DNA of 23,201 bases from the IMG/VR virus record IMGVR_UViG_3300010885_056870, positions 1 through 23,201 of that record. One strand, 5' to 3'. The translations under genes and the position numbers were made by a program. The notes under the pieces are model-generated. The model had not been told where the DNA came from and did no database searches. It worked only from the letters and a program-made list of their open reading frames with translations. Source of the DNA: a virus. Below are positions 1 through 20,363 of the stretch, piece by piece (position 1 is the first letter of the stretch; each line of letters begins with the position of its first letter).

Positions 1-408
1 AAAATAAGTACCCCCAATATTTTTATTGTACCACTTATCTGAATCCTCAAGAACTTCATTGATGAACATAAACTTTTCTTCGTAATAACTTAATTCTTTT
101 TTACTTGTACAAAGTCTTAAAATTGTTCTTTTAAAATTATTTTTTCCTAAAGTTTCTACGTCTTGCTTTAGTTCATCATCTGATCCCCAATACCTTTGCC
201 AATCAGACTCTCGTACTACCGTTTCTTTTGTCTTCTTACGGCCTTTCTTTCCTTCTTGAGCAGCCATGGCCCTAACACCTAATTTCTTCGTTCTAGTGGA
301 GATTAATGACTTCTTACCAATATATTTCTTACCGGTTTGTATATTTTCTATTTGATACACAAAACCAATATGTTCTTCCATATTAATTTGATCTTCGTTT
401 ATCCACAT
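1..408 (-). CDS. SegE-like GIY-YIG endonuclease, partial (C-terminus beyond left edge)
   Basis: The minus strand is open without a stop from an ATG at 408 to the left edge, giving 136 residues of an unfinished protein. GFVY at residues 15-18 and YIG at 29-31 match the two halves of a GIY-YIG nuclease core. A downstream WQRYWGS at 70-76, then GKNNFKR at 88-94, and YYEEKF at 108-113 holding the probable metal-binding glutamate (E110), resemble the SegE subgroup of phage GIY-YIG proteins. Family knowledge: such proteins are free-standing homing-type endonucleases that cut DNA of related phages. The start lies one base after the stop of the fibre gene at 410; an alternative start is Met10. A very basic stretch near residues 53-61 (KKGRKKTK) could contact DNA. 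The GIY-YIG assignment is fairly sure; actual homing activity is inference. Confidence 0.8.
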   Translation of the reverse strand, partial: MWINEDQINMEEHIGFVYQIENIQTGKKYIGKKSLISTRTKKLGVRAMAAQEGKKGRKKTKETVVRESDWQRYWGSDDELKQDVETLGKNNFKRTILRLCTSKKELSYYEEKFMFINEVLEDSDKWYNKNIGGTYF

Positions 409-409
409 A

Positions 410-1117
410 TTATTCTGGTTGGCCTAATGTAATATCAATTGTACTTATTCCACCCGATAACACTCCGTATCCAGATACGTTCATAGTTCCATAGTAAGAT
501 GTTTGGAATTCCCCAGTATTAGTAGATATTGAAGTATAAGCTGGTTGACCATCTACTTTGAAAATACTTTGTAAATAAACTTGGTAAGGTCCTGAGTATG
601 GTGTTATTCCATATGAGTTTGAGCCAACTGATAATCCAAATGTATCTAATGATAATACTTTTATATTATTAGTATTCCAAACTTCAATAGTTCCTCCCCC
701 TTGAACTTGTGGATACTTAGTGATCTGAATAGATGTAGTAAATACAGGTGTTCTAGAAGGGGTTATGCTAGGAGTTGCTGTTGGACTTAATGAAATTGGT
801 GGTTTACTTGGTGTAACACTTGGTGTAGCACTAGCTGATCCTGGGGGGTTAGCACTTTTTGAAGGAGTAATACTAGGTGTAGGCGATGGACTTCCAGGTA
901 TACAATTTGGTATTGCAACTGTTTCTTGAATAACCTTGTTCATGTCATATGGATCCATAGAATACAAAGTATAACTTCCAGCAGGTAATGAATTTGGCAA
1001 TGTTATTGACTGGGCACCACTTGATATTATTGCATCATAAACAATAACTCCTTCAAAGCTTAATAGCATGTAGTGAACTAGTGAAGAAGAATGCGTATAA
1101 TTAACTGATAATATCAT
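410..1117 (-). CDS. Small fibre/adhesin-like protein with Thr-Pro-Ser linker
   Basis: This 235-residue protein has three parts: an N-terminal region of about 75 residues ending in an isolated cysteine (C72), a Pro/Ser/Thr-rich linker at residues 76-124 starting SPSPTPSITPS, and a C-terminal beta-rich, Gly/Ser/Tyr-rich domain of about 110 residues. The linker is of the same kind as in the 1539- and 1078-residue proteins encoded upstream, so it probably belongs to the same virion appendage set. The N-terminal segment (YDAIISSGAQSITLPNSLPAG) reads like a small beta-sandwich. No signal peptide or membrane helix is evident. It follows the gene at 1119 by one base and precedes the endonuclease gene by one base. 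Function is inferred only from the linker and the neighbours; I do not recognise either end domain. Confidence 0.75.
   Translation of the reverse strand: MILSVNYTHSSSLVHYMLLSFEGVIVYDAIISSGAQSITLPNSLPAGSYTLYSMDPYDMNKVIQETVAIPNCIPGSPSPTPSITPSKSANPPGSASATPSVTPSKPPISLSPTATPSITPSRTPVFTTSIQITKYPQVQGGGTIEVWNTNNIKVLSLDTFGLSVGSNSYGITPYSGPYQVYLQSIFKVDGQPAYTSISTNTGEFQTSYYGTMNVSGYGVLSGGISTIDITLGQPE
746..892 (-). repeat. Thr/Pro/Ser-rich linker-coding region (short)
   Basis: It codes for residues 76-124 of the 235-residue protein and consists of degenerate TPSI/TPSV-type tetrapeptides. At DNA level the plus strand shows imperfect 12-base units of the type actaggagtaat. It shares the run gtaggcgatggactt exactly with the start of a linker in the 1539-residue gene near 2998-3012. 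Confidence 0.8.
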
Positions 1118-1118
1118 A

Positions 1119-1631
1119 TTAACAAGTTGCTGTTGAAATTGAAACTTTTACTGGTACTGTATATGGATCTATTATTGCATTAGGTGCTTTAGGGCAAAGC
1201 ATTGCTTGTCTAAATATATCATCTAATCTATCCTGTAAATCACTATAACCAACTCCTCTAAACCCCCCATTAGTATTTGTTATCCTTGGATTTCCATTTG
1301 TATCCAAATCTAAGTAATTTTTTTTAGAAATATGGCTTGTATCAAATTTTAATACAAAATTCATGTCAGTTTTTTTTGACATTGGTACAGGCTTTCCAAA
1401 TTTACCTACTGCTAATAGATTACCATCATCATCATAAAGACCTAATCCAGTTGAATATGGAGTAAACTCAGATCCTGTAGCAAAATCAACCAATGAACTA
1501 CTATGATTTACCTTGTCAATTAATAAGCTTGGATTATAAGACATATTAAATTCATCCTCATGTACTGTACATTGTACAGAGGTTTCCTGAATCGTATGCT
1601 CATTCTTAAAGCTTATAGTGTATGGTATCAT
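1119..1631 (-). CDS. Fibre-associated protein sharing a C-terminal cassette with the 339-residue protein
   Basis: A 170-residue protein. Residues about 27-100 (EFNMSYNPSLL then GLYDDDGNLLAVGKFGKPV) match the last 67 residues of the protein encoded at 9769-10788 (DLNYTTNPSII then GLLNDDGDLLAVAKISKPI). This cassette recurs, from memory, in structural proteins of marine T4-like phages, where it closes fibre or tail-associated proteins. The protein adds about 70 further residues with two Cys (C147 region and the terminal C170). It probably sits at the base of a fibre or is a fibre-attachment piece; the exact role is unknown. The start codon is preceded by an A/T-rich leader with the word TATTTATA four bases before the ATG (coding strand). 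The stop is one base before the next start. Confidence 0.75.
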   Translation of the reverse strand: MIPYTISFKNEHTIQETSVQCTVHEDEFNMSYNPSLLIDKVNHSSSLVDFATGSEFTPYSTGLGLYDDDGNLLAVGKFGKPVPMSKKTDMNFVLKFDTSHISKKNYLDLDTNGNPRITNTNGGFRGVGYSDLQDRLDDIFRQAMLCPKAPNAIIDPYTVPVKVSISTATC

Positions 1632-1879: not shown

Positions 1880-4800
1880 TTAACCGATGCAAGATTCATT
1901 AAATGTATATGGATTGTCTCCCGATGATCCTACACTAGGAGTTGTTCCTCTTTTTACACAAGCTGTATTAATATCGTCATCGTATACATAAACATAATGA
2001 GATTCTCCATCACAACCAATATATGCAAATGCTTCTGATAAAGGAGGAGGAGTACCGCCACTATTATGGAAGTAGTAAGTAACTCCACATGATACACATC
2101 CATGAGTAACTGAGTTGTATTCAATTACTCTATCTGAACAACCTGCACTTGAACAAGAGTTGATATCACTTTGACTAATTACCCAGTTTGGACCTGAACA
2201 ACGTGCCGTTCCTATGTCATAACAGTCAGGAGATGTATTTGGTGAACCAACGGGATTTGACTGCCGCCATGTTCCGATTGCATAATAAATATTAGGTCCA
2301 GTATAACATGTATTAACGTTTTGATAAACAGGATAATATGTTATAACACCTGCACTACAACTAAAGGTAGTTCCTATACTAGTAGAACCTGCAACTTGGG
2401 ATGTATTAGCCCCACAACTTGGACTACATGTCTGAATAGTCTCTGTAGTTCCTGCATAATTTCCTGTACAGTTATAACGAGAGTCACGTTTTTGAGTTGT
2501 TCCATCACAATATGTGTACCAATATGTACCGTTAAAGTTTTGATTACATGTACAACTATCAGGAAGTACTCTATAAGAATTAGCTCCACAATCATTTTGA
2601 GTTGGCTGCCTATTTTCAGTCCCTACACAACTAGGAGATCCTACATCAAAATAATGATCAGCATTGAAAAATTCAAAAGTTTGTACACTATTTCCAGAAG
2701 GTGAAATTGAAGTACCATTTGTATATGCACTGCCATTAAGTGTTACATTACAAGCAGGTGGGTTGTTATAATATATAGCTATTGTTGTTCCCACCTCATA
2801 ACTTCTAGAACCGGATTTCCAAGTTCCATCCCCAACTCCGTTGATATACACTACATAGCTATCTCCATTTAAACTATTTCGTGGATTTAAAATTACAGTT
2901 GCATAATTTTTAGATGGTGTAGGAGTAATACTTGGAGTTCTAGTTGGAGTTAAACTAGGTGTAACACTAGGTGTTTTACTTGGAGTTATACTTGGAGTAG
3001 GCGATGGACTTGGAACTACACCAAAGTAAACTTTGATAGTTTCAAATTCATTTGCTTGAGTACCACCACTATTCATAAATAATGTTCCAAATGTATAAGA
3101 AAGATTGCCAACACCAAGAGTAATTACCGTTGTAGGATTTACGTTATAAGGGACATATCTCTCGATTTTATCAATATAGTATCCAATATTAGCTGAAATT
3201 GTACTTCCTACTACATTGTATTGATTTTGACCAGCTAATATCAAGCTATAGTTAGTACTAAATGCTGCACTATTTCCAGTAGCATTTAATGTCATAACAC
3301 CATTAGGGCTTTGAAGCTCAAAATAATACTTATACATTATCATACTTGGACTTGGTGTAGGAGTAGGAGTTCTAGTAGGAGTAATACTTGGTGTAGGAGT
3401 AATACTTGGAGTAATACTTGGAGTTAAACTAATACTTGGTGTAGGAGTAATACTTGGAGTAATACTTGGAGTTAAACTAATACTTGGTGTAGGTGTTAAG
3501 CTAGGTGTTGTACTCGGAGTAATACTTATACTTGGAGTAGGAGTTACACTAGGTGTTGCAGTTAAACTAGGAGTAATTGAAGGAGTAACACTCGGAGTTA
3601 TACTAGGTGCTGGTGTTGTACTCGGAGTAACACTTGGAGTAATACTAATACTAGGAGTTACTGTCGGAGTAACAGTCATACTTGGAGTAGGAGTAACACT
3701 AGGACTAGGATTAATACAGTTAGTAAAACTACCAGTAACGTAACTTATCTTATTAATTGGATTGGTAGAATCTATTGATGCTATTTTAATAGCAGTAATA
3801 TCATAAGAAGCTGAAACTACATTTCCGTATGGAACATATGTTTTAACATCACTAGAAGAAGCTGTTACTGGGAATGAAGCAACAAAAGTCTCACTTCCAG
3901 ATACTGTTTGATAAACATTTGCAGTTAATCTGACTTCATTATATAAAGGTGTTTGAAAACTTGCAGAAGTTCCATAAATATAAAATCCATAAAGCTGGTC
4001 ATTTGTTGGATAAGAAACTAAACATATTTCTTCAGCATTTATTGCTATTGTTTGAGATGGATTATAGTAAAAAGGATTAGTTATTCCCCATCTACTTATT
4101 GGTTGATACCATCCAGCTATACCAGATTCAACAGTTGTTATAGCTGTATTGCTAGGGAATAATTTTAAAGATGTTTTTAAATCAGAAGTTGCATATCCCC
4201 TTCTTATAAATGAATTAGAAATATCTAAATTAATGTCAAAACATCTAAATGATGAACTATAATATTTAACGTAATAATGTATTACATTATCATCCATTCC
4301 ATAAAAATACCAATCACTTGTGTGATCTAAATCTGTCGTAACAAGTGAAAAAGTATTGCTATTAGAATCAGTAACAGTTGTGGAACCCGAAGATGCCATT
4401 GTATAAATATTTGTTACCGTACCATTTACTGTTTGATAAAAAGTTCTGTATGGACTTGTTCCACTTATTGTATAATATCCATTAGCTACCTCATATCTAC
4501 CTTCTGTATCATAAAATAATTTTTTACCAATTGTTAAACCAGCACCATTTGTGTTACTATATAATGTACTTACATAATTTGGGTTTGTTTCAACCTTAAG
4601 CTCATGAGTAAAAACTGACTGCAAAGAACCAAGAGAGCTTCCTGATAATGTTGAAGAATAACTATATTTTGCTACAGCATTTGCCTTTGCTTTATTCCAT
4701 GTAACTAATGCTTTATTATTTGCATCAACACCGCTTATACAACTCACCGATGAACTTGCTTCTAAAGTTAAACTTATATATCCTGGATTTGTAGTTAATT

Positions 4801-6499
4801 CAGCACATTCAGATAATGCAATTGTTTCATTAAAGACTTCACTGTAATAAATTGGGTTACCTTCTCCGCAATATGGGATTGGTTTTCCTGATGTATAAGG
4901 AAGTAATAATAATTTATTTATTCTTTCTACAAGGACAGGTGAATCGGCTTGTAATGAATTTTGAAATGAAAGTTTTAATGGATTTTCTGTTAATAATGCT
5001 TTTGGCGATGATGATAATGTTTTTGAAGATATAACACCACCCGACTGTTGATAGAAGTAAACTCCATCTGAATAATAGCCATTATTATTTGTTGTAAGTA
5101 AAACATTCCTTGATAAAACTGATCCATTTTCTATATATGGAGTTGTTGTATAATGGTGAAGAAAACTAGGACATGCATTTTCATTATAATCTTTAGAAGA
5201 ATTAAGAACAACCAAAGCTACGATTAACACAATTATACCAAGTACAATAGCAAGAGGTCCTAATGTTCCTGCCAAAGCAGCCGCAGCTGAATATGTAAAT
5301 GTAACACCTTCAATAAAACATCCACCCGTAACAACAAATGAAGCCAATATAGGACCTGCAAAGAAACCAGCAACAATTGAAATTCCAGCTCCTATAGCTA
5401 TTCCTGCTTGTAAACCCAAAGAAACATTTGTATCAAAACCTTTAACAAATCCATCTGACATTTTTAATCCAGCATGTGTTTCTCCTGTTACCGCATAAAA
5501 ATTTTCTTGTGTTTCAACATATTTTTGGAAATGATTGTCATTTGAATTCTGTCTAGAGCTAGCATGATAACCCATGTAATACTTGTACTTTTGTGGTTGT
5601 ACTATTGTACTAGCAGTTATTACTTCTTTTACTAAACCAACGCCAGACATAAATACATTTACACATGCATCTGTGCCATCACTAACTGATAAGCTTGGCC
5701 ATTTTTGTGGACCATATACATAATCAGTTACACTAGGAGCTACGCCAAATATAGCTCTCCAAGCAGTTTGATATACTGTTTTTCTTTTTTTTATTCCGTA
5801 AGCTCTGTCAAGTTCTCCTCCAACTTTATATACCTTTCCAGTTGAAGAATATCCATAATAATAAGGAAATGCAGGATTATCAAATGATGATTTTGACCAT
5901 ACTTTTGTATCTGTTGACCAACTTGTTATAGGTATTCTTGAATATAGATTTGTTGTTAGCTTAGGGCTATTTATAGAATCCCATGCAGAATAAACATGAA
6001 GACCCATATTATATTTGTATAAAGGAGTATAACAGTCATAACTAACTGTTGTAGAACTACTTAGCCCAGATGAACGGGATATTACACCAATGGATGCATG
6101 TATTTTTAAAAAATTGGTTTTATTTGTTTGATCTCCATTAACAATGACATATAATCTTTGTGTTACGCCACTTATTAATTTTACATCATAACCTGCAACA
6201 GGTTTTCCATCTGAAAAGGGAACAAACAAATCATCTATATTACTTCCTACTGATATTTCGCCAATATTAGACTCAAAAGTTATTGAAGCTATTTCTGCAG
6301 AACCTGTATATAATACATCAAATGTAAGATATCCATAATCTGTAGTTGATAGTTTAATTGTTTTAGACTTGTTATTATAAACTTTACCTATATAATTCTT
6401 AGTTACATTTGTATCTGTTTTAGGTACATATGCCGGCAAGCTAGATTTATAATCAGCAGCCGTAGAAAAAGAAAATGAAGAACTATAAGGTAATGGCAT
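1880..6499 (-). CDS. Giant multidomain fibre/adhesin-like protein with hydrophobic block, two TP-rich linkers and Cys-rich end
   Basis: A 1539-residue protein in a receptor-binding gene cluster. Residues 1-350 are beta-rich and Tyr/Ser-rich. Residues about 358-432 form a 75-residue hydrophobic block (AGIAIGAGISIVAGFFAG and LAIVLGIIVLIVALVVL) able to make two to three membrane helices. Residues 661-680 carry LFYDTEGRYEVANGYYTISG, like a motif in the 1078-residue protein. A Thr/Pro/Ser linker fills 931-1052, followed by a small beta domain at 1053-1162, a second linker at 1163-1196, and a C-terminal region with 20 cysteines. I recognise no enzyme motif. It most likely forms or decorates a tail fibre or other surface appendage and binds host or environmental glycans, by inference from context. 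The hydrophobic block is unusual for such a protein. No signal peptide is seen, as expected for a phage virion protein. Confidence 0.8.
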   Translation of the reverse strand: MPLPYSSSFSFSTAADYKSSLPAYVPKTDTNVTKNYIGKVYNNKSKTIKLSTTDYGYLTFDVLYTGSAEIASITFESNIGEISVGSNIDDLFVPFSDGKPVAGYDVKLISGVTQRLYVIVNGDQTNKTNFLKIHASIGVISRSSGLSSSTTVSYDCYTPLYKYNMGLHVYSAWDSINSPKLTTNLYSRIPITSWSTDTKVWSKSSFDNPAFPYYYGYSSTGKVYKVGGELDRAYGIKKRKTVYQTAWRAIFGVAPSVTDYVYGPQKWPSLSVSDGTDACVNVFMSGVGLVKEVITASTIVQPQKYKYYMGYHASSRQNSNDNHFQKYVETQENFYAVTGETHAGLKMSDGFVKGFDTNVSLGLQAGIAIGAGISIVAGFFAGPILASFVVTGGCFIEGVTFTYSAAAALAGTLGPLAIVLGIIVLIVALVVLNSSKDYNENACPSFLHHYTTTPYIENGSVLSRNVLLTTNNNGYYSDGVYFYQQSGGVISSKTLSSSPKALLTENPLKLSFQNSLQADSPVLVERINKLLLLPYTSGKPIPYCGEGNPIYYSEVFNETIALSECAELTTNPGYISLTLEASSSVSCISGVDANNKALVTWNKAKANAVAKYSYSSTLSGSSLGSLQSVFTHELKVETNPNYVSTLYSNTNGAGLTIGKKLFYDTEGRYEVANGYYTISGTSPYRTFYQTVNGTVTNIYTMASSGSTTVTDSNSNTFSLVTTDLDHTSDWYFYGMDDNVIHYYVKYYSSSFRCFDINLDISNSFIRRGYATSDLKTSLKLFPSNTAITTVESGIAGWYQPISRWGITNPFYYNPSQTIAINAEEICLVSYPTNDQLYGFYIYGTSASFQTPLYNEVRLTANVYQTVSGSETFVASFPVTASSSDVKTYVPYGNVVSASYDITAIKIASIDSTNPINKISYVTGSFTNCINPSPSVTPTPSMTVTPTVTPSISITPSVTPSTTPAPSITPSVTPSITPSLTATPSVTPTPSISITPSTTPSLTPTPSISLTPSITPSITPTPSISLTPSITPSITPTPSITPTRTPTPTPSPSMIMYKYYFELQSPNGVMTLNATGNSAAFSTNYSLILAGQNQYNVVGSTISANIGYYIDKIERYVPYNVNPTTVITLGVGNLSYTFGTLFMNSGGTQANEFETIKVYFGVVPSPSPTPSITPSKTPSVTPSLTPTRTPSITPTPSKNYATVILNPRNSLNGDSYVVYINGVGDGTWKSGSRSYEVGTTIAIYYNNPPACNVTLNGSAYTNGTSISPSGNSVQTFEFFNADHYFDVGSPSCVGTENRQPTQNDCGANSYRVLPDSCTCNQNFNGTYWYTYCDGTTQKRDSRYNCTGNYAGTTETIQTCSPSCGANTSQVAGSTSIGTTFSCSAGVITYYPVYQNVNTCYTGPNIYYAIGTWRQSNPVGSPNTSPDCYDIGTARCSGPNWVISQSDINSCSSAGCSDRVIEYNSVTHGCVSCGVTYYFHNSGGTPPPLSEAFAYIGCDGESHYVYVYDDDINTACVKRGTTPSVGSSGDNPYTFNESCIG
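2912..3013 (-). repeat. Second Thr/Pro/Ser linker of the 1539-residue protein
   Basis: It encodes residues 1163-1196, beginning PSPSPTPSITPSKTPS and leading into the Cys-rich C-terminal region. It has the same head sequence as the linkers in the 235- and 1078-residue proteins. Confidence 0.85.
3344..3709 (-). repeat. First Thr/Pro/Ser linker of the 1539-residue protein
   Basis: It encodes residues 931-1052, about 122 residues of PSIT/PSVT/PTPS tetrapeptides. On the plus strand the DNA has 12-base imperfect tandem units such as acttggagtaat, and a longer block (near 3403-3452 and again near 3448-3498) is repeated almost exactly, so at least one recent local duplication is visible. Confidence 0.85.
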
Positions 6500-6522: not shown

Positions 6523-9500
6523 TTAAAAACAGTAGATTAATGTACCGTCACAGATCGCATAAGGGGCAGATCCACTTACAGACCCACTAATTAAACTATA
6601 AATGTTAGTGTTTGGTGTGCTTCCACTTGCAGTTTGTTGTTTATAATATCCGTTAGCAACAGTTTGAGTAAATGTAGAATCTTGGTACCAAGTAGAAGAT
6701 ATCATACCACTTCCGCTATATTGAGCATTATTGAAGAAAACAGAAGCAGTTGTGTTGCATGTAGCACACATAGCATCAGGTAATGTTGAACCAGTATAGT
6801 AACAGAAGTTCATTACTGTTACATTTGGTTTTTCAATAGCAGCATAGATAGTAGTATTAACATCAAATGTATGATCATACATACTAGAAGTTGTTATAAA
6901 CGGATTATTTTTAACATTTACTCCGTGTTTAGTCCATCCTAATAAGTTACTTCCAGATGCTAAACTAGCTGTTACAGGAACAACGGTTCCATATGCCCTG
7001 GTTAATGAGAATGATGATGTAGTTTGAAGGCTACCAGAATTTATACTTCCACTTGCCACAGAATTAACTTTTAATAAAGCAAATGTTACCGTTATGCTGC
7101 AATCAATTTGTGGCCATGAATTAATATATCCTCTTGAATCTTTAACTACTGGGCTAATTGAACTCGCACTAACACCAGTAAATACATAAGATGTACTACT
7201 TGTTGGAGAAGTGTAAATTGATCCAGAATTTAGACTATATTCATATGGTCCTACACCACCGCTTACCGTAATAGTAGCAATTGATCCTGTACAATCAAAA
7301 GATGATGTTACTATATTGAAAGTTGGAATTGGTGAAGTAGAAGGTGTAATACTAGGTGTTAAACTTACACTAATACTAGGTGTAACAGTTATGCTAGGAG
7401 TAACAGTAACACTTGGTGTTATAGTAACACTTGGAGTAATACTAGGAGTTCTAGTAACACTAGGTGTAATGCTTATACTAGGTGTAATGCTTATACTAGG
7501 TGTGATACTTGGACTCGGGGTAATACTTGGAGTAATAGTTGGAGTAATACTTGGAGTAATACTTACACTAGGGGTAATGCTTATGCTAGGTGTTATAGTT
7601 ACACTAGGAGTAACAGTAACACTTGGAGTAATGGTAATACTTGGAGTAATACTAATACTAGGAGTTAAACTAGGAGTAGCAGTAATACTTGGAGTAATAC
7701 TTGGTGTTGTACTCGGAGTAATGCTTGGAGTAATACTAATACTTGGAGTAATACTAGGTGTTATACTTGGAGTAATACTTACACTTGGAGTAATACTTGG
7801 GGTAACACTTGGAGTAATACTAATACTTGGAGTAGGTGTAGGGCTAGTACTTACGGCCGGCGTTCTAGTAGGAGTAAGTGTAGGTGTTAAGCTAGGTGTT
7901 ATACTTGGGGTAATACTTATACTTGGAGTAATACTAGGAGTAATACTTGGAGTAATACTAATACTTGGAGTAGTAGTAATACTTGGAGTAATACTTGGTG
8001 TAACCGTAATACTTGGAGTAATACTAGGAGTAATACTTGGAGTAATACTTGGGGTTAAACTAGGAGTAGCAGTTGTGCTTGGAGTAATAGTTATACTAGG
8101 AGTAATACTTGGTGTAGCCGTAATACTTGGTGTAATAGTAATGCTTGGAGTAATGGTTATACTTGGAGTAATACTTGGAGTAATACTTGGAGTTTTTGTT
8201 ACTGTCGGTGTTACCGAAGGAGTAGGTGTTAAACTAGAAAACGGTGTCATTGTTACACTAGGAGTAACAGTTATACTTGGTGTAACTGTAATACTTGGAG
8301 TAATACTTGGAGTAGCCGTAGCTGATGGTGTTCTTGTTACTGTTGGCGTAGGTGTAGGAGTTCCAGTAGGAGTAATACTAGGTGTTATAGTAGGAGTTAT
8401 GCTAATAGTTGGTGTAACACTTGGAGTAGCACTTGGAGTAATACTAATACTTGGAGTAATACTTATACTAACCGTTATAGTAGGCGTAGGGGTTACGCTA
8501 GGACTTCCTGTAATATCAGGGGTTCTACTTGGAGTTACGCTAATACTTGTAGTTACACTAGGTGTAGGCGTAATACTTAATCCAGGAGTAGAACTAGGAC
8601 TTACTGAAGGTGTTAAGCTTGGTGTTCTACTTGGAGTTGCCGTAGGACTTAATCCAGGGGTAGCACTAGGACTTGGACTTGCTGTTTTAGTAGGTGTTAA
8701 ACTAGGTGTTACCGTAATACTTGGAGTAATACTTGGAGTAGGTGATGGGGAAGCAAATATTGCCGTAAGATCATCACATCTTCTACAAATATCTACTTTA
8801 ATATACCTGTAATCACTATAAAAACCTTCTGTTGTTTTTACTCTGTACAATGCTTCATAAGCAGATATTTGAGTATTTGTAATCCTAATTACAGTTGAAG
8901 AAGGAGTTTGCCATGCAAATCCAGTTGAAGGTTGTACTATTTCATATAAAGCAATAGAAATTGCTGGATGTATAGTTGCTAAATTAATATCATAGTATCC
9001 ACCATTGCTGATAATATCTTGATCATATAATTTATAGTACAATTGCTTGATACCAGGAACTTGGGGTAGTATAAGTGTATATTCCCCAGTAATTATTGTA
9101 TAAATACCATTTATAGTAATAACAAATCCTGGTGAAAGATCAGCAACCCATGTAGGAAGTTGAGAAGTTAAATAAGTTCTTACTAAAGGTATTTTACCAT
9201 TTATGCTTGATATTCCTTCTTCATAAAATATATTTCCTACATGAACACTTCCTGAAGAAATATCATATAAATTTCCATTTCCATCATCAGTAATATAAAA
9301 TAAAGAAGAAGAAACAACATATGATCCAGGCTTAATTCTATTTCCAAATAAAGACTTTGGAACCCCAACAACTCTAACTTTGTCTAGTGATCTAGTTGGA
9401 TAGTTTTTGATAATTCCCTCATATACTTTTTGTGAATACCCAAAGGCATTTCTTAGTCCGGTCTGATTATCAAAATAAGGAGATAAATTATATGAACCAG

Positions 9501-9759
9501 ATGAAACATTAGATCCGCTATAATTAGCTTGATAGTATAATTGATTTATTGAATCGTAAAGTGTTTTATTAAAGGATCCAAAACTCGTATCTGATGTAGA
9601 TGGATCAAAAAATCCTGGTATGTTTTGTGCTGTATAAAACTTAATATCCGTACTATTGTTAAAGTCTTCCGCATTAGAAACAGTATATGAATACTGCTTG
9701 TTTAATGTGATAGGCGATAATACAACATCCCCGGATGAAAGTTTCTTAAGTACATACAT
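6523..9759 (-). CDS. Giant tail fibre/adhesin-like protein with ~476-residue TP-rich stalk and SprB-like repeat
   Basis: A 1078-residue protein. Residues 1-336 form an N-terminal domain whose opening and GYSQKVYEGI (107-116) resemble the 339-residue protein encoded just upstream, so this end probably attaches to the virion. Residues 337-812 are an uninterrupted Thr/Pro/Ser/Ile linker built of PSIT-type tetrapeptides. Residues about 815-890 (ITVSGGVGPYEYSLNSG, then VKDSRGY) resemble a SprB repeat, a module known from Bacteroidota gliding adhesins. Residues about 890-980 (GWTKHG, then NTTIYAAIE) resemble bacterial InlB-type B repeats. The last 55 residues hold WYQDSTFTQTVANGYY (1024-1039), also seen in the 1539-residue protein. 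Overall it reads as base, stalk and distal binding head. Receptor binding is inferred; the domain resemblances were judged by eye. Confidence 0.8.
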   Translation of the reverse strand: MYVLKKLSSGDVVLSPITLNKQYSYTVSNAEDFNNSTDIKFYTAQNIPGFFDPSTSDTSFGSFNKTLYDSINQLYYQANYSGSNVSSGSYNLSPYFDNQTGLRNAFGYSQKVYEGIIKNYPTRSLDKVRVVGVPKSLFGNRIKPGSYVVSSSLFYITDDGNGNLYDISSGSVHVGNIFYEEGISSINGKIPLVRTYLTSQLPTWVADLSPGFVITINGIYTIITGEYTLILPQVPGIKQLYYKLYDQDIISNGGYYDINLATIHPAISIALYEIVQPSTGFAWQTPSSTVIRITNTQISAYEALYRVKTTEGFYSDYRYIKVDICRRCDDLTAIFASPSPTPSITPSITVTPSLTPTKTASPSPSATPGLSPTATPSRTPSLTPSVSPSSTPGLSITPTPSVTTSISVTPSRTPDITGSPSVTPTPTITVSISITPSISITPSATPSVTPTISITPTITPSITPTGTPTPTPTVTRTPSATATPSITPSITVTPSITVTPSVTMTPFSSLTPTPSVTPTVTKTPSITPSITPSITITPSITITPSITATPSITPSITITPSTTATPSLTPSITPSITPSITPSITVTPSITPSITTTPSISITPSITPSITPSISITPSITPSLTPTLTPTRTPAVSTSPTPTPSISITPSVTPSITPSVSITPSITPSITPSISITPSITPSTTPSITPSITATPSLTPSISITPSITITPSVTVTPSVTITPSISITPSVSITPSITPTITPSITPSPSITPSISITPSISITPSVTRTPSITPSVTITPSVTVTPSITVTPSISVSLTPSITPSTSPIPTFNIVTSSFDCTGSIATITVSGGVGPYEYSLNSGSIYTSPTSSTSYVFTGVSASSISPVVKDSRGYINSWPQIDCSITVTFALLKVNSVASGSINSGSLQTTSSFSLTRAYGTVVPVTASLASGSNLLGWTKHGVNVKNNPFITTSSMYDHTFDVNTTIYAAIEKPNVTVMNFCYYTGSTLPDAMCATCNTTASVFFNNAQYSGSGMISSTWYQDSTFTQTVANGYYKQQTASGSTPNTNIYSLISGSVSGSAPYAICDGTLIYCF
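7324..8751 (-). repeat. Long Thr/Pro/Ser tetrapeptide-repeat region
   Basis: About 1.43 kb coding for residues 337-812 of the 1078-residue protein. The basic unit is 12 bases (acttggagtaat on the plus strand; Ile-Thr-Pro-Ser in protein), varied at third codon positions and by Val, Ala, Leu, Arg or Lys substitutions. The regularity leaves the opposite strand open for almost 500 codons, which is a by-product. The protein segment should be extended, uncharged and unable to form a compact fold. The tract is prone to length change by slippage or recombination, by general knowledge of tandem repeats. Confidence 0.92.
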
Positions 9760-9768
9760 ATACTAAGA

Positions 9769-10788
9769 CTAGTAGTCTAATTTGACTTGAATTAATGCTT
9801 CTTTAGTAAAATCCTTTACTATTGGTTTTGATATCTTAGCAACAGCCAATAAATCACCATCATCATTAAGTAATCCTACAGTTGTAATGTATGTTTGAGG
9901 ATTATTTATTAAATCTGGGTAAATAAAGCTACCAGTACTATCTATAATACTAGGATTTGTAGTGTAGTTTAAATCTCCGTTTTTAACTCGAACATAAACA
10001 AACTTAGAATGAATTGTCTCTTGACTTCTAGCTGAAAGAGTTGTGAAAAAAGAAACTAAACGACCTGCATTATTTACATTTCCTGTTTGAGGAACTATTC
10101 CAAGACCTTTGTTAGCTGTACTTAATGCAAATGCATCGCCATTAATAACAACCATTCCCAAGTCAGGAAATACATATCCATAACTTCCACTAACAGTATT
10201 TGAAATAGCTTGTCCAGATCCTAAATTTCCGTTGCTACCTGAAACTAAATCAAAATAACGTCTTGAATTTATAAACTTATTTGTATTAAGATCTTTACTG
10301 TTATCAGTTAAATTCATTGTTACTCCTCCATTAACTATTGTTAAGTTAAAAGATGATGGTAATAAAGTTTCTTTATATTGTCTTCTAGCAAAAGAAAGAA
10401 CGTAGATATTACTAACTTGAGATATACCAGAAAAACTTACATTTACACTTTCATCTCCATAAATTAAGTTTCGAATACTATTATAAACAATTTGACTATA
10501 TCCAACTCCTTGTGGAGTACTTAATTTTGAATAAGATCCGCTAATATTTCCATATTGCATTGAAAATTGATTGTACCCAACAAAAATATCATTTGGATGT
10601 GCATATACCGAAGTATTTTTTTCATCTTCAATTGTATGAGTACTAGAGAAAACGTTTCCCGCTGATCCGGATGCATAAAACCTTACAATTGTTCCTGCAT
10701 CTGCACTTCCAGTTGTAAATAATGGTCTTGTAACTGTTTCAGAAGCTACTACCGAGTCATCAGTTGCTAATTTAATATATGAGGTCAT
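9769..10788 (-). CDS. Conserved T4-like marine-phage fibre/tail structural protein
   Basis: A 339-residue protein. The region at residues 96-105 (GYSQIVYNSI) and the N-terminus resemble the N-terminal domain of the giant fibre encoded next, while residues 273-339 (DLNYTTNPSII to the C-terminal VKLDY) match the cassette in the 170-residue protein. The ending TKEALIQVKLDY is, from memory, common in structural proteins of marine T4-like phages that lie next to the baseplate genes. It therefore looks like the conserved core version of this fibre family, possibly the piece that attaches to the baseplate. It starts six bases after the end of the 206-residue gene and ends nine bases before the giant fibre start. 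There are no cysteines and no membrane segments. Precise virion location unknown. Confidence 0.78.
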   Translation of the reverse strand: MTSYIKLATDDSVVASETVTRPLFTTGSADAGTIVRFYASGSAGNVFSSTHTIEDEKNTSVYAHPNDIFVGYNQFSMQYGNISGSYSKLSTPQGVGYSQIVYNSIRNLIYGDESVNVSFSGISQVSNIYVLSFARRQYKETLLPSSFNLTIVNGGVTMNLTDNSKDLNTNKFINSRRYFDLVSGSNGNLGSGQAISNTVSGSYGYVFPDLGMVVINGDAFALSTANKGLGIVPQTGNVNNAGRLVSFFTTLSARSQETIHSKFVYVRVKNGDLNYTTNPSIIDSTGSFIYPDLINNPQTYITTVGLLNDDGDLLAVAKISKPIVKDFTKEALIQVKLDY

Positions 10789-10794
10789 GTCTTA

Positions 10795-11415
10795 TTATTT
10801 GCTTATAGTTAATACAGCATTATATCTTGCACCAGAATCTTTACCCATTACCTCTAAAGTAGTACTTACAGTAGTTGCGGTACCAAATAATGCTGTTGAA
10901 TCAGTTGCTTTAATTGTAAATTTAGTTCCGCTAATACTTGTAGAAATCCTAGTTCCAATAGTTGCGTTAGGAGTTTGTGAAGAATTTGCCATATCACTAA
11001 CTACAGAGAATAATCTAGAATCACCAATAGTAATAACATATCCACTTTCTATATTACTTGTAAAGTTTAAAGTAGATGGTTGGATTGTCTTAGATTCGCT
11101 TAACTTAAATGTATATGTTGAGTTAATATTTGATATAACCGGCAACTTAGTAGTTGTTGATCTACTAGCAGTAAACAATTTATATCTCATTAGTTGAGAA
11201 TCATCTGGAAATGCCTCAATAACAGGTGTCAATTCTATTGATTCACCATAAAAAGCGGACCCAGATGGATGATTTGGATTATATAAAGTATAATCAATTT
11301 CATCATCAGATAATGCAAATTGAGTTATGTTGAAGTTACCTTTTGCCAACATCTCCCTTCCTTTTTTAGTTAAGATGGCATCAACTGTAACATACGTTGA
11401 ATTAAGAATACCCAT
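10795..11415 (-). CDS. Conserved marine-phage structural protein of unknown role
   Basis: A 206-residue protein opening MGILNSTYVTVDAILTKKGR, followed by a helix-like segment and NFNITQFALSDDEIDY at about residues 28-43. This opening (a short strand, DAILT..GR..LA, then FALGDDEIDY) is, from memory, recurrent in marine T4-like phages, where the gene sits next to fibre and baseplate genes; no function is known to me. The rest of the protein is beta-rich and Ser/Thr-rich, ending in a plausible immunoglobulin-like domain (SGTKFTIKATDS, then TTVSTTLEVMG). It is preceded by a 43-base A/T-rich gap, one of the longest in the window, which could be where a transcript begins. A virion role is inferred from its position. 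Confidence 0.75.
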   Translation of the reverse strand: MGILNSTYVTVDAILTKKGREMLAKGNFNITQFALSDDEIDYTLYNPNHPSGSAFYGESIELTPVIEAFPDDSQLMRYKLFTASRSTTTKLPVISNINSTYTFKLSESKTIQPSTLNFTSNIESGYVITIGDSRLFSVVSDMANSSQTPNATIGTRISTSISGTKFTIKATDSTALFGTATTVSTTLEVMGKDSGARYNAVLTISK

Positions 11416-11429
11416 AATATTGTTTTATT

Positions 11430-11441
11430 TATTTATAAATA
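11430..11441. promoter_or_regulatory. Palindromic TATTTATAAATA: candidate late promoter or junction motif
   Basis: TATAAATA is present on both strands: minus strand at 11437-11430 (correct T4 late orientation for the gene at 11415) and plus strand at 11434-11441. If used as a T4-type late -10 element on the minus strand, the transcript would start only about 8-10 bases before the ATG, so the leader would be very short. It lies in a 43-base gap between two structural genes. Confidence 0.4.
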
Positions 11442-11458
11442 TAGTTTTTTTAAAAAAT

Positions 11459-13966
11459 TTATATATTAGTAACAAGATTAGTCTTGTTCTTGATTGTAGC
11501 AACCACTGTATCTAAGTTGGACTGTATTTCTGTATTAAGGTTTTGTGGTATAATGAATCCAGAATTATTAGTTATCGTACCAAATTCGTTATCCGTGAAT
11601 GTATAATTTAGTATAATAGAGGTTTCATCTAAAAATCTTGACAAAAAACATACTTTATACTCAACTTGTTTAATTATCAAATCTGTTGCAAGATCTGCTG
11701 GAATAGAATCAGTATTTAAGATCCATTTACCTTGATTTTTTGAATAAACAATGTCCTTTATTCGTATTAATCTTTTTTGAACTCCACCTGGATTTGTAGG
11801 ATCTCCTGTGTATGAATTGTATACAAATAAAACAAAGCTATTTTTATTAATAATAAAGTCCTCTGATATAGTACCAAATGTAGACCAAGCTTTACTATTA
11901 TTATTTTCTGGATTTGAAAATGGTATAAATCTTGTAGATCCATAAACAAAACTTAGTCCAGATGATAATGTTATAGTTGGATTTGTTATACTTGGATCGA
12001 TAGTAATACCAATTGAATTTACAACAGATGATCCTTTAATAGAAAAATCACCACTTTGTATTGTTTCATAAAGCATATTTCCCGAAGATATTGTCTTTAA
12101 TAGTTGAAACTCTAATATATCAGTAGAAATTAAAGGAATACTTTCGTTAACGTTCATTAAAATACTTATTTGCAAATTAGAATTAGATGAATCTAAACCA
12201 CTAATACTATTATCCGGAAAATAAATATTTACGGCACCTCCACCAGCGGTTGGTTTTCTATAATAAGAAACAAATAATGAATTCGCCGTAGAGTTTGTAG
12301 TGCTATAAACCGATTGTCTTATGATTTCAACATTAGAAACATATCCAGCACCATTATCATAAGTAAATAATTTTGCTTCACTCTTTACCATAAATGAATC
12401 TGATACTCCATTATTTTGTAATGTTGTTATTAATCCACCAATTCGGCTAGGATCTCTTAAGCTATCTGTTACACCAAATATATTAATTTTTGAATAATAT
12501 TTTGTATTTCCGTCCCAGCTCCAATTAGTAGAGTTAGGGATATAAGTTGCTGATGAGTTGTCAGTATCTCTCTCAAGAAAGCTATTAAGCCTTGGTAAAA
12601 TATCATCATCGGCTACATTAAAAACATAAAAATCAACTTCAGCTTTATTTTGAGCACTTTGTGTTATTGTTTTAAATTCCGTTCCGTTTTTAATTATTTT
12701 TATACTATAAGAAACACTTCCTCCAGAAGAAAATACGGGTTCAATTTTAAATTGAGAGCTAACTACATAAGATGTTGTAGAAGATGCTAAAAATTTGCTG
12801 TTTGTTATGTTACTATAAGACGAATTAATATATTTTCCATTTGCATTAGTTTCACCAATTTGATTATGATAATCAAATACACCATAAATTGGTACAAGAG
12901 ATCCTGTTGTAAAGTCTGTTTGATAATCAGGATATGTGCTTCTAAACGAAGTCTTACCAGAGGCTATCTTAATAATAACATTTCCATTATTACCACTTGA
13001 ATCATTTGGATTATATCCATTAAGATACTCAAAATTTAATTTAGTATCATTTGGGCTAGAAAAATAAAATACAGGACGGTATGAATAACCTGTCTCATAA
13101 ATAAATCTTTTGTCGTTCTTGTTTTGTGAATTTCTAAAAAATCCAATAGTTAACTTATCATTAGGTCTAAATATCTTTTGAAGATCTCCTAAATTTTTAT
13201 TAGAACTATTTAGTACATTTAAGTTTCCATCCTTATCACTTAGATACTTAAGTTCTAGGACAGTCTTGTTTGGAAGAAAAGAATCTTTCTTAAAATTATT
13301 AAAAACGCCAACTTTATTAGTTACAGTACTAACAGATCCAGATACAGAATAAGATGTCAAATAATTAGAATCTTTATTCTTTGTACCATCATATCTTGGT
13401 CCTGTATATGAGGTCATGTTTGTATATGAATCTTGAAACTTAAATGATCCTGTTATAAATGCGTTTATTCCTCGAACAAAAACATTATTTGATGTTATTG
13501 GATTTAAGTACTCTACTTTGCTATAAATTGAAGATATCTTTTCGTTAGAAACATTGTTTAAGAGAGCTTTATATTTTGAGTGGTTAAAAGCATAAGTATC
13601 ATCTGATGTAAATGATCTATTAGTAGCGTATTTATTTTCATTTAAAGTTTGGAAATCACGATAGTAAGTAACATTAGATCCGGAAATACGTCCAGTAAAA
13701 TATGGCATCCTATTACCTTCTAATTGAGAGTAATATTTAGCCTCATTGTGCCCAACAGTAGGTTTTATCCTAATTCTTTTAGAAGCAAAATGAGTAAGTT
13801 TGACTCCTGATTTAATCTCGGATCCTTTGCCACGTTCTAAAATAGAAGGCTCAACAATAACACCGACTGTAGTAGTAGATCTAGCTGGAGAAGAATCACT
13901 AGTAACCTTGAAAATTGTATTATCAAGAAACTCACTAAGTCTTATAAAATCTTTAAAATCTATCAT
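11459..13966 (-). CDS. Large baseplate/tail structural protein
   Basis: An 835-residue protein in the gene series that follows the gp25 and gp6 homologues. It opens with a helical segment (IDFKDFIRLSEFLDNTIF) and then SPARSTTTVGVIVEPSILER, followed by repeated Tyr/Ser/Asn-rich beta regions. SYTGPRYDGTKN near residues 182-193 resembles a phrase I associate with large structural proteins of marine T4-like phages. No enzymatic motif, signal peptide or membrane helix was seen. The ATGA overlap with the stop of the 921-residue gene suggests translational coupling and probably roughly matched amounts. A baseplate-wedge or proximal fibre-attachment role in the position of T4 gp7 to gp10 is plausible by order only; I cannot match it to a T4 gene by sequence. 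Confidence 0.75.
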   Translation of the reverse strand: MIDFKDFIRLSEFLDNTIFKVTSDSSPARSTTTVGVIVEPSILERGKGSEIKSGVKLTHFASKRIRIKPTVGHNEAKYYSQLEGNRMPYFTGRISGSNVTYYRDFQTLNENKYATNRSFTSDDTYAFNHSKYKALLNNVSNEKISSIYSKVEYLNPITSNNVFVRGINAFITGSFKFQDSYTNMTSYTGPRYDGTKNKDSNYLTSYSVSGSVSTVTNKVGVFNNFKKDSFLPNKTVLELKYLSDKDGNLNVLNSSNKNLGDLQKIFRPNDKLTIGFFRNSQNKNDKRFIYETGYSYRPVFYFSSPNDTKLNFEYLNGYNPNDSSGNNGNVIIKIASGKTSFRSTYPDYQTDFTTGSLVPIYGVFDYHNQIGETNANGKYINSSYSNITNSKFLASSTTSYVVSSQFKIEPVFSSGGSVSYSIKIIKNGTEFKTITQSAQNKAEVDFYVFNVADDDILPRLNSFLERDTDNSSATYIPNSTNWSWDGNTKYYSKINIFGVTDSLRDPSRIGGLITTLQNNGVSDSFMVKSEAKLFTYDNGAGYVSNVEIIRQSVYSTTNSTANSLFVSYYRKPTAGGGAVNIYFPDNSISGLDSSNSNLQISILMNVNESIPLISTDILEFQLLKTISSGNMLYETIQSGDFSIKGSSVVNSIGITIDPSITNPTITLSSGLSFVYGSTRFIPFSNPENNNSKAWSTFGTISEDFIINKNSFVLFVYNSYTGDPTNPGGVQKRLIRIKDIVYSKNQGKWILNTDSIPADLATDLIIKQVEYKVCFLSRFLDETSIILNYTFTDNEFGTITNNSGFIIPQNLNTEIQSNLDTVVATIKNKTNLVTNI

Positions 13967-16728: not shown

Positions 16729-16731
16729 CTA

Positions 16732-18143: not shown

Positions 18144-18165
18144 TTTAATTAATTGTCTATTATTT

Positions 18166-18175
18166 TATAAATATT
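18166..18175. promoter_or_regulatory. TATAAATATT junction motif, copy 1 of 2
   Basis: Plus-strand TATAAATATT in the 43-base gap between the gp6-like gene and the DNRLRE-like gene, 22 bases before the ATG at 18143 on the coding strand. A second copy follows 13 bases away. Confidence 0.35.
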
Positions 18176-18178
18176 TGA

Positions 18179-18188
18179 TATAAATATT
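18179..18188. promoter_or_regulatory. TATAAATATT junction motif, copy 2 of 2
   Basis: Second plus-strand TATAAATATT in the same gap. Its last two bases fall within the stop codon of the gp6-like gene. With copy 1 it makes a direct repeat with a 13-base period. Confidence 0.35.
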
Positions 18189-19959
18189 ATTTGGAAACAG
18201 ATCTTCCTTTAATATCATTATCTAAAAATCTAACCTCAAAACAACTTGGGTCTTTCGGTGGATATATAATGTTATTCTTTGTAGCAGATTTTACATCATA
18301 CCCATATGGTGAATAATCACCTCCACTTATGTTTACAACTTCTACGTTTGTCACAACCTGAACACCTTTTATTTTGCTGATAGTGTTGTAAATATCAGAC
18401 ATAACAATTGGTTGGTTAATCTGCCAGTTGTCAATAGCAAAAAATGTCTTAAGTTCTATAATAGAATTCATAATAACTTCAGATGCATTAAAGCTAGGGT
18501 AAACTACAATGTCAAAATTGACTCCTACATTAACATAGTAGGCATTATTTATCGTCAAAGTGTCATTTACAGCTCTATAATAGCTTAAATATTCCTTTAG
18601 GTTCTCTTTTAAAACTAAAGAAGGAACTGCTAATTTCTTATTACTATCATAAGCAAGGGTATATAAATTCAATAAAAGAGGGTCTTTGTCATCTTTTTCT
18701 ATATGAACTTTAGAAATTGCACCAAATTCAGAAGGCATCATCATTGATCTAGCAATATAATCTCGCTTTGTGACCGTTCTTTCTTGCTCAGAAAATGAGT
18801 TTACAATGTTTAACTTAAGCTCATCTTTAGTGTCACCATCACGACCTCCTACACTTGGCTGATCATTTGTAATAGTTACGGTAGATCTTCTATCTGTTTC
18901 TGTTGTATATTTTCTTATAATATCCGCAGAATTAAATCCTGTTATTGTATCACTTGGAAGGTTTGATTGAATCCCACCACCAGTTATATATCTGACGGTT
19001 AGAGAAGTATTTCCTGGAGCTATGCCATAACTCTTACTTGATAGGTAATCAAATCTATTATATGAGTCAAATATTCTTGAAATACCAGCAACAGTACCTA
19101 AAGAAGCTAAGTCTGCATTTGGAAGTAATTCCTCTGTCTCTTTATAGTTAGTACCTGCTCCAAATTCTAGTACAAGTTGATTGTAATCAGAAAATCTAGA
19201 AGTATATCTTCTAGGAACCTTAACATATTTAAGCAAATAATCAGATCCATCAGTAGCACTGTATTTTGGATTGCTCAGCTTATTATTCTGAACACGTTGC
19301 ATGATTGTATCTTGTGCAAGATAGGGAACCTCATACCATGGATTTCCTAAAGAATCAGTAACATCAAGTATACCAATAATATTCTCATCATTGATTTTTA
19401 CTTGAGAATATTTCTGAGGAGATCCAAAATTAAAGGAAGTAGTTTTTATCTCTGCTGATATTACATTAACGTATTTTGTCAACGTATATCCACTTCCATT
19501 TTTTATGATAGTTGTTCCACTGCTTATGCTGAAATCAACCTCATCCATTGTTATAAATGATTGTTGAGTATTTGATTTAACTATAGTATTTTTAGGCAAA
19601 ACAATAGCTTCCAATAAGTTCGGAGCTGAATTTAAAGTTCCTACATATTGAGAAACTGCAATTTCTGCAACAGATGCATATGTTACTTTTGGACGATATC
19701 CTTTCTCATAGGCCAAAGAAAACAAAGCTTCCCTTGTTCTAGCATATTGTACAAAGTTCTCAAGTATTTGATTATTAATGTAGAACGAAAGTACATCACC
19801 AATATACGATGCTTGCTCAATAAAAATATTTCCAACAGAGTTTGATGTGAAATCTCCATAGCTATCCGGAAAGTAGGTCTTTGTATACTCGGTTAATGAA
19901 GACTTAAAATCTGTAAAGTTCTTCCCTATATATGAAATATTTTTTGTTTCGTTTTTCAT
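18187..19959 (-). CDS. 6: Baseplate wedge protein, gp6-like (baseplate J family)
   Basis: A 590-residue protein (T4 gp6 is about 660). The N-terminus (TDFKSSLTEYTKTYFPDSYG, then SVGNIFIEQASYIGDVLSFY, NNQILENFVQYARTREALF and AYEKGYRP) is the typical start of gp6 in T4-like phages. The middle contains ERTVTKRDYIARSMMMPSEF with the preceding strand-rich region, as in baseplate J proteins. The end has the repeated-fold region AYYVNVGVNFDIVVYPSFN and closes with DPSCFEVRFLDNDIKGRSV, again like gp6. In T4, gp6 dimerises and forms the inner ring joining the six wedges around the hub; gp25 and gp53 clamp it. It starts two bases after the end of the gp25-like gene, so the two are probably co-translated. 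This is one of the most secure assignments in the window. Confidence 0.93.
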   Translation of the reverse strand: MKNETKNISYIGKNFTDFKSSLTEYTKTYFPDSYGDFTSNSVGNIFIEQASYIGDVLSFYINNQILENFVQYARTREALFSLAYEKGYRPKVTYASVAEIAVSQYVGTLNSAPNLLEAIVLPKNTIVKSNTQQSFITMDEVDFSISSGTTIIKNGSGYTLTKYVNVISAEIKTTSFNFGSPQKYSQVKINDENIIGILDVTDSLGNPWYEVPYLAQDTIMQRVQNNKLSNPKYSATDGSDYLLKYVKVPRRYTSRFSDYNQLVLEFGAGTNYKETEELLPNADLASLGTVAGISRIFDSYNRFDYLSSKSYGIAPGNTSLTVRYITGGGIQSNLPSDTITGFNSADIIRKYTTETDRRSTVTITNDQPSVGGRDGDTKDELKLNIVNSFSEQERTVTKRDYIARSMMMPSEFGAISKVHIEKDDKDPLLLNLYTLAYDSNKKLAVPSLVLKENLKEYLSYYRAVNDTLTINNAYYVNVGVNFDIVVYPSFNASEVIMNSIIELKTFFAIDNWQINQPIVMSDIYNTISKIKGVQVVTNVEVVNISGGDYSPYGYDVKSATKNNIIYPPKDPSCFEVRFLDNDIKGRSVSK

Positions 19960-19961
19960 TT

Positions 19962-20363
19962 TTATTGTATACCTAAAGTAATTGAATCAACCGTATTGGA
20001 TACCTGATATGTCATATTTAATAGCAAGGTGTTCTCGTAGTTGTCATCCATCATCAGACTAAATTCTAATATGTTGATCTGCGGAAAGTTAGCCTGTATC
20101 TTTGACTTAATTTCACCTTCCCTGTCAGAAATTGTACTTTCTGATTCAAATATTAAATTCCTTAATCCAAGTCCATACCCAGGATTTAACATTCTTTCAC
20201 CTTGACCAGTTAAGGTATAGTTTATAATATTGGCTTTTATCTGTTCTTTGGTAGCATATACTGGCTTAAATACGTTTCCAGCGTTAAATAATAAACTCAT
20301 CCCAACAATTTTGTTAGGATTAAGATCATCTACGTTAATATTTCTACCAATTATATACGCCAT
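19962..20363 (-). CDS. 25: Baseplate wedge protein, gp25-like (GPW/gp25 family)
   Basis: A 133-residue protein, the same size as T4 gp25 (132). QIKANIINYTLTGQ at residues 41-54 and GERMLNPGYGLGLRNLIFE at 55-73 carry the family signature (a conserved Glu-Arg, a Pro..Gly, and a Leu-Phe-Glu-like ending). The C-terminal part, INILEFSLMMDD and then LLLNMTYQVSNT, matches the alternating strands of the fold, which resembles lysozyme but has no lysozyme activity. In T4 it is part of the wedge core with gp6 and gp53 and helps trigger sheath contraction. It begins with TAATG, overlapping the stop of the 103-residue gene by one base, and lies two bases before gp6, an order common in T4-like phages of marine origin. 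Confidence 0.92.
   Translation of the reverse strand: MAYIIGRNINVDDLNPNKIVGMSLLFNAGNVFKPVYATKEQIKANIINYTLTGQGERMLNPGYGLGLRNLIFESESTISDREGEIKSKIQANFPQINILEFSLMMDDNYENTLLLNMTYQVSNTVDSITLGIQ

Follow-up and report, generated by a model that had tools for sequence, protein, structure and literature searches.

SprB-type repeats are contained in the SprB gliding adhesin of Flavobacterium johnsoniae, a very large protein that is exported by the T9SS and carries a type B CTD. Accessory Ig-like domains of tailed phages, such as those of T4 Hoc, form a sandwich that is thought to aid contact with surfaces or glycans. The tail-linked BACON arrays of crAss-like phages are divergent from the bacterial ones and have been hypothesised, in passages of PMC6949934, to bind the Bacteroides surface; the same passages state that the BACON domains of bacteria have no carbohydrate binding of their own, so a tip domain can be structural. 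For Flavobacteria, part of PMC7345892 relates a suggestion that phage receptors belong to the gliding machinery, and according to an excerpt of PMC13288928, SprB and RemA may serve as phage receptors. The text of PMC12635249 makes no mention of ‘SprB repeat’, ‘Ig-like’ or ‘phage’, and searches of an open-licence library listed no title or abstract opening concerned with phage tails that carry SprB repeats or T9SS CTDs.

The window analysed here is a virus record of 23,201 bases. It encodes a stalked protein of 1078 aa, in which a SprB-like module follows directly after the stalk in the ORF reading, among the features below.

1..408, minus strand: SegE-type GIY-YIG endonuclease, cut by the window end (PF19835, E 4.1e-30)
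410..1117, minus strand: 235-aa protein with a short T/P/S stalk (ORF and linker scan)
1119..1631, minus strand: 170-aa protein, 40% identical over 109 aa to residues 248-356 of immuto gp105 (its C-terminal part)
1880..6499, minus strand: partner gene, 1539 aa, with an N-terminal region of ~930 aa followed by two stalks and Cys-rich parts; adjoins the tip gene
2909..3025, minus strand: second T/P/S stalk of the partner gene (linker scan)
3335..3718, minus strand: first T/P/S stalk of the partner gene (linker scan), inside which homology to L063 resumes
6523..9759, minus strand: stalked tail protein of 1078 aa, with base, T/P/S stalk and tip (ORF; synteny with the immuto tail genes)
6526..6825, minus strand: Cys-rich C-terminal tip module, residues 979-1078 (alignment of nine tips)
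6826..7095, minus strand: second tip domain, residues 889-978, very weakly like the InlB B-repeat (PF18998; conserved in nine tips)
7099..7329, minus strand: SprB-like Ig/FN3-like module, residues 811-887 (PF13573; own profile with shuffles; model of pLDDT 87)
7336..8766, minus strand: Thr/Pro/Ser-rich stalk, residues 332-808 (linker scan, tandem repeats); its end at 7336 was set by eye, the linker scan itself giving 7297-8766
8767..9759, minus strand: N-terminal base ‘A’, residues 1-331, a putative tail anchor (likeness to L063, L002/L003 and immuto gp105)
9769..10788, minus strand: 339-aa tail-region protein, homologue of immuto gp106 (36.9% over 347 columns)
18187..19959, minus strand: baseplate wedge protein, 590 aa (phrog_219, E 1.1e-14; immuto gp112, 40.6%)
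19962..20363, minus strand: baseplate wedge subunit (phrog_43, E 3.5e-6)

An antisense frame of 498 aa at 7316-8812 was read as an artefact of the stalk repeat and rejected.

The initial annotation had noted a likeness to the SprB repeat at residues of about 815-890, quoting peptides that fall at residues ~817-890 (window 7090-7310). This likeness was borne out as a single SprB-type module at residues ~811-887. The match to the Pfam SprB model, PF13573, is significant by E value but lies below the curated cut-off of 28 bits: with the C-terminal 150 aa as query it scored 26.9 bits (E 3.7e-6) and covered only profile positions 15-36 of 37, and with the C-terminal 275 aa it scored 25.1 bits (E 1.4e-5). 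Searched with the whole 1078-aa protein, Pfam returned no family at E <= 1, PF13573 included. A six-frame PF13573 scan of the window record gave a sole match (26.6 bits, E 1.5e-7), and none of 14 control genomes matched in the same scan. Against a profile of 28 Bacteroidota domains the window module scored 58.9 bits, aligned at positions 9-66 of 80, and the whole ORF 54.3 bits, figures that are flattered, since likeness to the window module was the basis on which the bacterial rows had been collected. The phage copies of L002 and L003, which lay outside that fetch, scored 33.9 and 36.6 bits, the best shuffle reached 16.8 bits (4918 of 5000 shuffles were given a score), and the next-best open frame of the window 7.9 bits.

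A search of genome_contigs with the 80-residue window domain yielded 399 candidate stretches, with matches at 43 loci. As the initial annotation implied, the affinity of the module is with Bacteroidota: 41 of the 43 loci carry Bacteroidota titles, and the remaining two are MAGs titled beta proteobacterium. The match lies within an ORF of >1000 aa in 41 of 42 loci examined (L039, on the same contig as L037, was left out), and by eye several of these ORFs have ends resembling T9SS CTDs. In building the profile, L029, L034, L033 and L041 were dropped; removal of duplicates and X rows left 35 rows, and removal of near-identical Arenibacter rows left 28. When alignment A1 was searched against genome_contigs, none of 97 candidates was confirmed.

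An AlphaFold2 model of the module alone, made with 35 sequences, is an all-strand, Ig/FN3-like sandwich with a pLDDT of 87. Foldseek searches of the PDB with this model gave no chain at E <= 0.001 (best 0.06). VIA-align found mostly FN3 and some Ig-like domains, with Z <= 8.5 and 3.1 Å over 80 residues, a level of Z that may reflect only the common sandwich arrangement. The model agrees with an Ig/FN3-like sandwich and is by itself no proof of SprB membership. PDB sequence searches found no solved relative for comparison. An initial model covering the entire tip was of low quality (pLDDT 63), with a strand-rich second tip domain, and a fold search from it was not used.

The initial annotation did not recognise that the SprB-like module belongs to a longer tip, which is exchangeable. 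This tip of ~270 residues is present in nine distinct phage sequences: the window, L002 and L003 (54% and 52% identical to the window tip), and L052, L053, L056, L059, L060 and L061 (34-36%). The nine include one close pair, L052/L053 (95%), and do not count L054, L055, L057 and L058, which are >99% copies. Seven Cys are invariant across the nine tips, five of them within the C-terminal module. PF13573 at E <= 0.001 matched the tip ORF in eight of the nine record scans (window, L002, L003, L052, L053, L056, L059 and L061), and in L060 the only match at this threshold falls in the partner gene, not the tip. The curated cut-off was reached in none of the nine tip-bearing records, and a Pfam library scan at E <= 1 matched SprB in only two of nine tips. 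On the second tip domain, PF18998 (divergent InlB B-repeat) gave E 0.063-0.47 only, with two of the nine tips matched at E <= 1. A renewed scan with the nine tips returned 12 loci, namely 11 known contigs and L068, the match figures of which are identical to those of L061; the tip scans are not exhaustive, since this one missed L061 itself. Among phage records the window tip found nothing at E 0.01, nor with the limit relaxed to E 10, and another tip found nothing at E 0.1.

Phylogenetic analysis of 40 domains over 86 columns, with L053 left out, grouped the eight tips as a single long-branched clade (support 99/97). This tree does not allow the donor to be located, since 19 of its 37 inner branches are open and likeness to the window guided the choice of bacterial rows. 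Three further phage contigs, L004-L006, have SprB modules that lie outside the tip clade, so that SprB repeats have come into phages either repeatedly or at an early date. The tip appears to be long established in phages, and not something captured recently. The idea that the module was captured from the host surface is thus only partly supported: given the single long-branched phage clade of the eight tips, capture, if it took place, happened long ago and from a donor that cannot be named; a recent capture from a named host was rejected on these grounds.

Two further phage proteins came to our attention. Immuto gp015 (L065 1192-1923; NC_055915.1 12691-13422) combines a cohesin domain (36.7 bits) with a C-terminal T9SS sorting domain (34.6 bits), both over cut-off, and is apparently a phage protein marked for export by the host T9SS. 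In LR756502.1, a 642-kb uncultured phage, the stretch 516832-518190 matches the Bacteroidota SprB-repeat protein L048 in eight places (best 43.6%), and weaker matches beside this one include the fibritin of RB43-type phages.

The gene for the 1078-aa protein lies among tail and baseplate genes with its module at the far end of the stalked product, in agreement with the proposed position in the distal part of a phage fibre. A Bacteroidota host had likewise been suggested, and among cultured phages it is Flavobacterium phage immuto that the baseplate wedge gene matches best (40.6% over 99%); the host is probably a member of the Bacteroidota. The next matches of the wedge protein are Microcystis phage Mel-JY01 (36.5%; labelled a cyanophage) and then a 484-kb uncultured phage. 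The tail genes of Mel-JY01 (L008, PP395634.1) are close to those of immuto and the window, and it may be worth re-examining the host assigned to it.

From the wedge genes to the 339-aa gene, the gene order is that of immuto gp113-gp106. Immuto gp105 is one protein of 357 aa, with a base-A-like N-terminus and a C-terminus like the separate 170-aa protein of the window; a base-A profile finds it at E 1.3e-11 (best domain 2.2e-9), and BLAST only at E 0.014. A 591-aa protein of Mel-JY01 shares the C-terminal part found in the 170-aa protein and gp105 (E 4.9e-13), preceded by a laminin-G domain; its N-terminus compares with base A at E 0.011 only, and the base-A profile did not find it at E <= 0.01. 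The 484-kb phage encodes an unbroken protein of 306 aa with base-A-like and 170-aa-protein-like parts (L078 15836-16753; LR756508.1), perhaps the ancestral form. Given that gp105 and this 306-aa protein are unbroken and that the halves are separate in the window, we infer that, in the window’s group, an adhesin island of ~7 kb separates the two parts of what was formerly one tail protein. SegE homologues occur at the same island end in L063, L002 and L003, and a GIY-YIG gene follows the gene for the 591-aa protein in Mel-JY01; a SegE-type endonuclease beside the island might promote its exchange.

Other features of this region stand apart. The 170-aa protein (1119-1631) and the C-terminal part of the 339-aa protein (9769-10788) look paralogous (34% over 86 columns). 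By eye, the partner protein has a hydrophobic stretch rich in Gly/Ala/Val/Ile at residues ~364-432 (window 5204-5410), which is odd for a fibre. The 951-aa N-terminal part of the partner gave no useful match among phage records.

The SprB tip was found on at least two N-terminal bases, and the window’s base with at least three kinds of tip. Base A of the window is 88% identical to that of L063 over 336 aa and 31-32% identical to proteins of 448-450 aa in L002/L003. The arrangement of the window, a base-A-like N-terminus with a SprB tip, recurs in L052/L053 (profile E ~4e-10; BLAST 42% over 50 aa). In L002, L003, L056 and L059-L061, base A belongs to a protein of its own, 441-454 aa long and ending in a short tip, of two kinds by eye (L059/L060 versus L002, L003, L056 and L061), and the SprB tip is carried by another N-terminus, ‘base B’. 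L068 has both genes as in these six loci. The tip gene directly precedes the partner gene in all 13 loci that have both (nine distinct), and also in L068; outside this count are L062, which begins inside the partner, and L063, which is without SprB tip and partner.

L063 represents a sister phage, in which seven proteins along the stretch from wedge gene to 339-aa gene are 71-98% identical to those of the window. It has kept base A and the stalk, and its tip is unrelated to that of the window: used as a query, this tip matches its own contig only, and an internal segment matches Por_Secre_tail (T9SS-CTD-like) at 21.7 bits (E 2.5e-4), under the cut-off of 27. L063 also lacks the N-terminal ~930 aa of the partner, although a 749-aa protein of L063 shares a later part of the partner (42% over 417 columns). 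The DNA of the pair is colinear over window positions 7338-19797 (81.5%), stops at the window’s stalk end and resumes at 3469, inside the first stalk of the partner. Because both breakpoints are at stalks, the differing block in this pair is the tip plus the partner N-terminus, stalk to stalk; the exact breakpoint within the repeat is not fixed, as the L063 stalk runs ~100 bases past the aligned part. Exchange of the distal part with a conserved base is thus seen between the window and L063 as well as in the base/tip combinations.

The stalks are alike within genomes and unlike between them. Median cosines of 4-mer profiles were 0.82 for stalks of different genes in one genome (23 pairs, 0.47-0.99; nine genomes) and 0.05 for the same gene class in unlike genomes (71 pairs, up to 0.87), with L053 dropped as a near copy of L052 and the pairs L056/L061 and L059/L060 left out. 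None of 2000 label shuffles, which ignore relatedness, reached the observed mean, and the medians for stalk DNA 9-mers were 0.46 within and 0.06 between genomes. Stalk motifs differ between genomes with folded tips 79-88% identical, as in L060/L061, where the tips are 87% identical and the stalks have a cosine of 0.00; in the close pair of the window and L063 the cosine is 0.55. Exact identity between the stalk DNA of the 1078-aa gene and that of the 1539-aa gene extends over at most 30 bases (200 synonymous shuffles: mean 25.3, maximum 35), and DNA-level gene conversion between the window’s stalks was set aside as unproven because the shared DNA is within this range. The longest internal stalk repeat, 41 bases, is slightly over the shuffle maximum of 39. 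The likeness within genomes has the pattern of concerted evolution, for which shared expansion bias, selection on composition and recombination are all possible; searches of an open-licence library listed no title or abstract opening on concerted evolution of fibre stalks. Quite tentatively, and with more doubt than confidence, we suggest that the T/P/S stalks serve both as spacers and as landing pads for recombination that are homogenised in each genome, that cassettes of tip plus partner (some Bacteroidota-like: SprB, perhaps T9SS-CTD-like) are exchanged between phages and bases, and that a SegE-type homing endonuclease may provoke the exchange.

On balance, we consider it probable that the module is the first domain of a putative surface-binding tip on a stalked tail protein of a Bacteroidota phage with a T4-like baseplate, and that it is an old acquisition, with tips exchanged at the stalks. 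Base A would anchor the protein to the tail, as suggested by synteny, and the T/P/S stalk of ~480 residues would hold the tip away from the virion. The tip, consisting of the SprB-like sandwich, the strand-rich second domain and the Cys-rich cap, may contact the cell surface or its glycans and could in this way contribute to host specificity. The SprB-like part would descend from repeats of Bacteroidota surface proteins and would long since have become the phages’ own. Tips would pass by recombination between phages and between bases at the stalks, and a phage could therefore change its tip while keeping its tail. We read the tip as an exchangeable host-surface adhesin, parallel to the BACON domains of crAssphage.

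Were GGxGPYxYS and DxxG generic Ig-like motifs, the phage domain would not be homologous to SprB repeats, and the Pfam match, partial (15-36), under cut-off and missing from seven of nine tips in the library scan at E <= 1, could be taken that way; we consider this highly improbable, given that most of the module aligns, at 58.9 bits (an optimistic score, as noted above) against <= 16.8 in shuffles, and that two Arenibacter domains are 41-42% identical to it. It is also unlikely that the window joins two phages at repetitive stalks, which would make both the fusion of base A with the SprB tip and the L063 ‘swap’ false. Such an error would require two false joins, and a base-A-like N-terminus with a SprB tip is found as well in L052-L055, from four IMG datasets and in two distinct sequences; in addition, both stalks flanking the exchanged block share the window’s motif style (cosine 0.83). 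The concern arises because the compared virus contigs are metagenomic and because chimeric joins would be expected at repetitive stalks, which here are near-tandem DNA with an exact 41-base repeat inside them.

Concerning function, the SprB-like sandwich might merely join stalk and cap, with binding left to the Cys-rich C-terminal part. This is possible, if somewhat doubtful: the sandwich directly follows the stalk, five of the seven invariant Cys fall within the C-terminal part, and in the passages of PMC6949934 cited above the nearest parallel, the BACON domains of bacteria, are treated as linkers. Only one copy of the module is present, and throughout the nine sequences the tip has been conserved as a set with all of its parts, which speaks against a spacer without separating the roles of the parts. 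A different proposal, the bolder one in the initial annotation, has the module imitate SprB so as to engage the gliding/T9SS machinery or travel on moving adhesin tracks; it draws on the discussion of the gliding machinery, with SprB and RemA named, as a receptor of Flavobacteria phages (parts of PMC7345892 and PMC13288928) and on the sub-threshold T9SS-CTD-like domain in the L063 tip. We find it improbable. SprB-type repeats are common to many large Bacteroidota proteins, so the module does not point to gliding, and the L063 domain ends ~175 residues before the end of its protein and is therefore unlikely to be a sorting signal. The PF18962 sorting-domain model had no match in the window record, a Pfam scan of the window tip found no other CTD family, and nothing observed ties the module to gliding machinery. 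The preferred reading, a surface-binding tip of old acquisition, offers a test case for tip change, since base, stalk and tip are separable and a sister pair differs at the tip; with a cultured relative available (immuto, on Flavobacterium sp. LMO8), bench tests are possible.

Compared with the SprB repeat of PF13573, the window module has a similar extent of ~77 residues and a core of GGxGPYxYS and VxDxxG, and it is itself predicted to be a sandwich; it differs in being a single phage-borne copy with a sub-threshold score, joined to two further tip parts, and, by eye, in the second Cys, which lies away from the DxxGC position. It has the repeat kind in common with the F. johnsoniae SprB adhesin, but with one SprB match in the record it lacks the tandem repetition of SprB-type adhesins, and that copy lies in a phage tail operon. 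Domains of the T4 Hoc type are also Ig-like sandwiches thought to aid surface or glycan contact, whereas the window module is related in sequence to a mainly Bacteroidota repeat and is placed at a fibre tip. Immuto (vB_FspM_immuto, NC_055915.1) shares the tail gene order and homologous baseplate genes with the window, but its gp105 is one unbroken 357-aa protein and its genome is without a SprB match. The BACON domains of crAss-like phages, as portrayed in passages of PMC6949934, likewise represent an Ig-like domain of Bacteroidota surface proteins that was kept, and diverged, in a tail-linked phage protein; the window has another domain family, in single copy on a T/P/S stalk rather than in a tandem array, and with exchange of base and tip. 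The pattern of a Bacteroidota surface domain in a phage tail is thereby extended to another family, in phages that have a T4-like baseplate and are related to a Flavobacterium phage.
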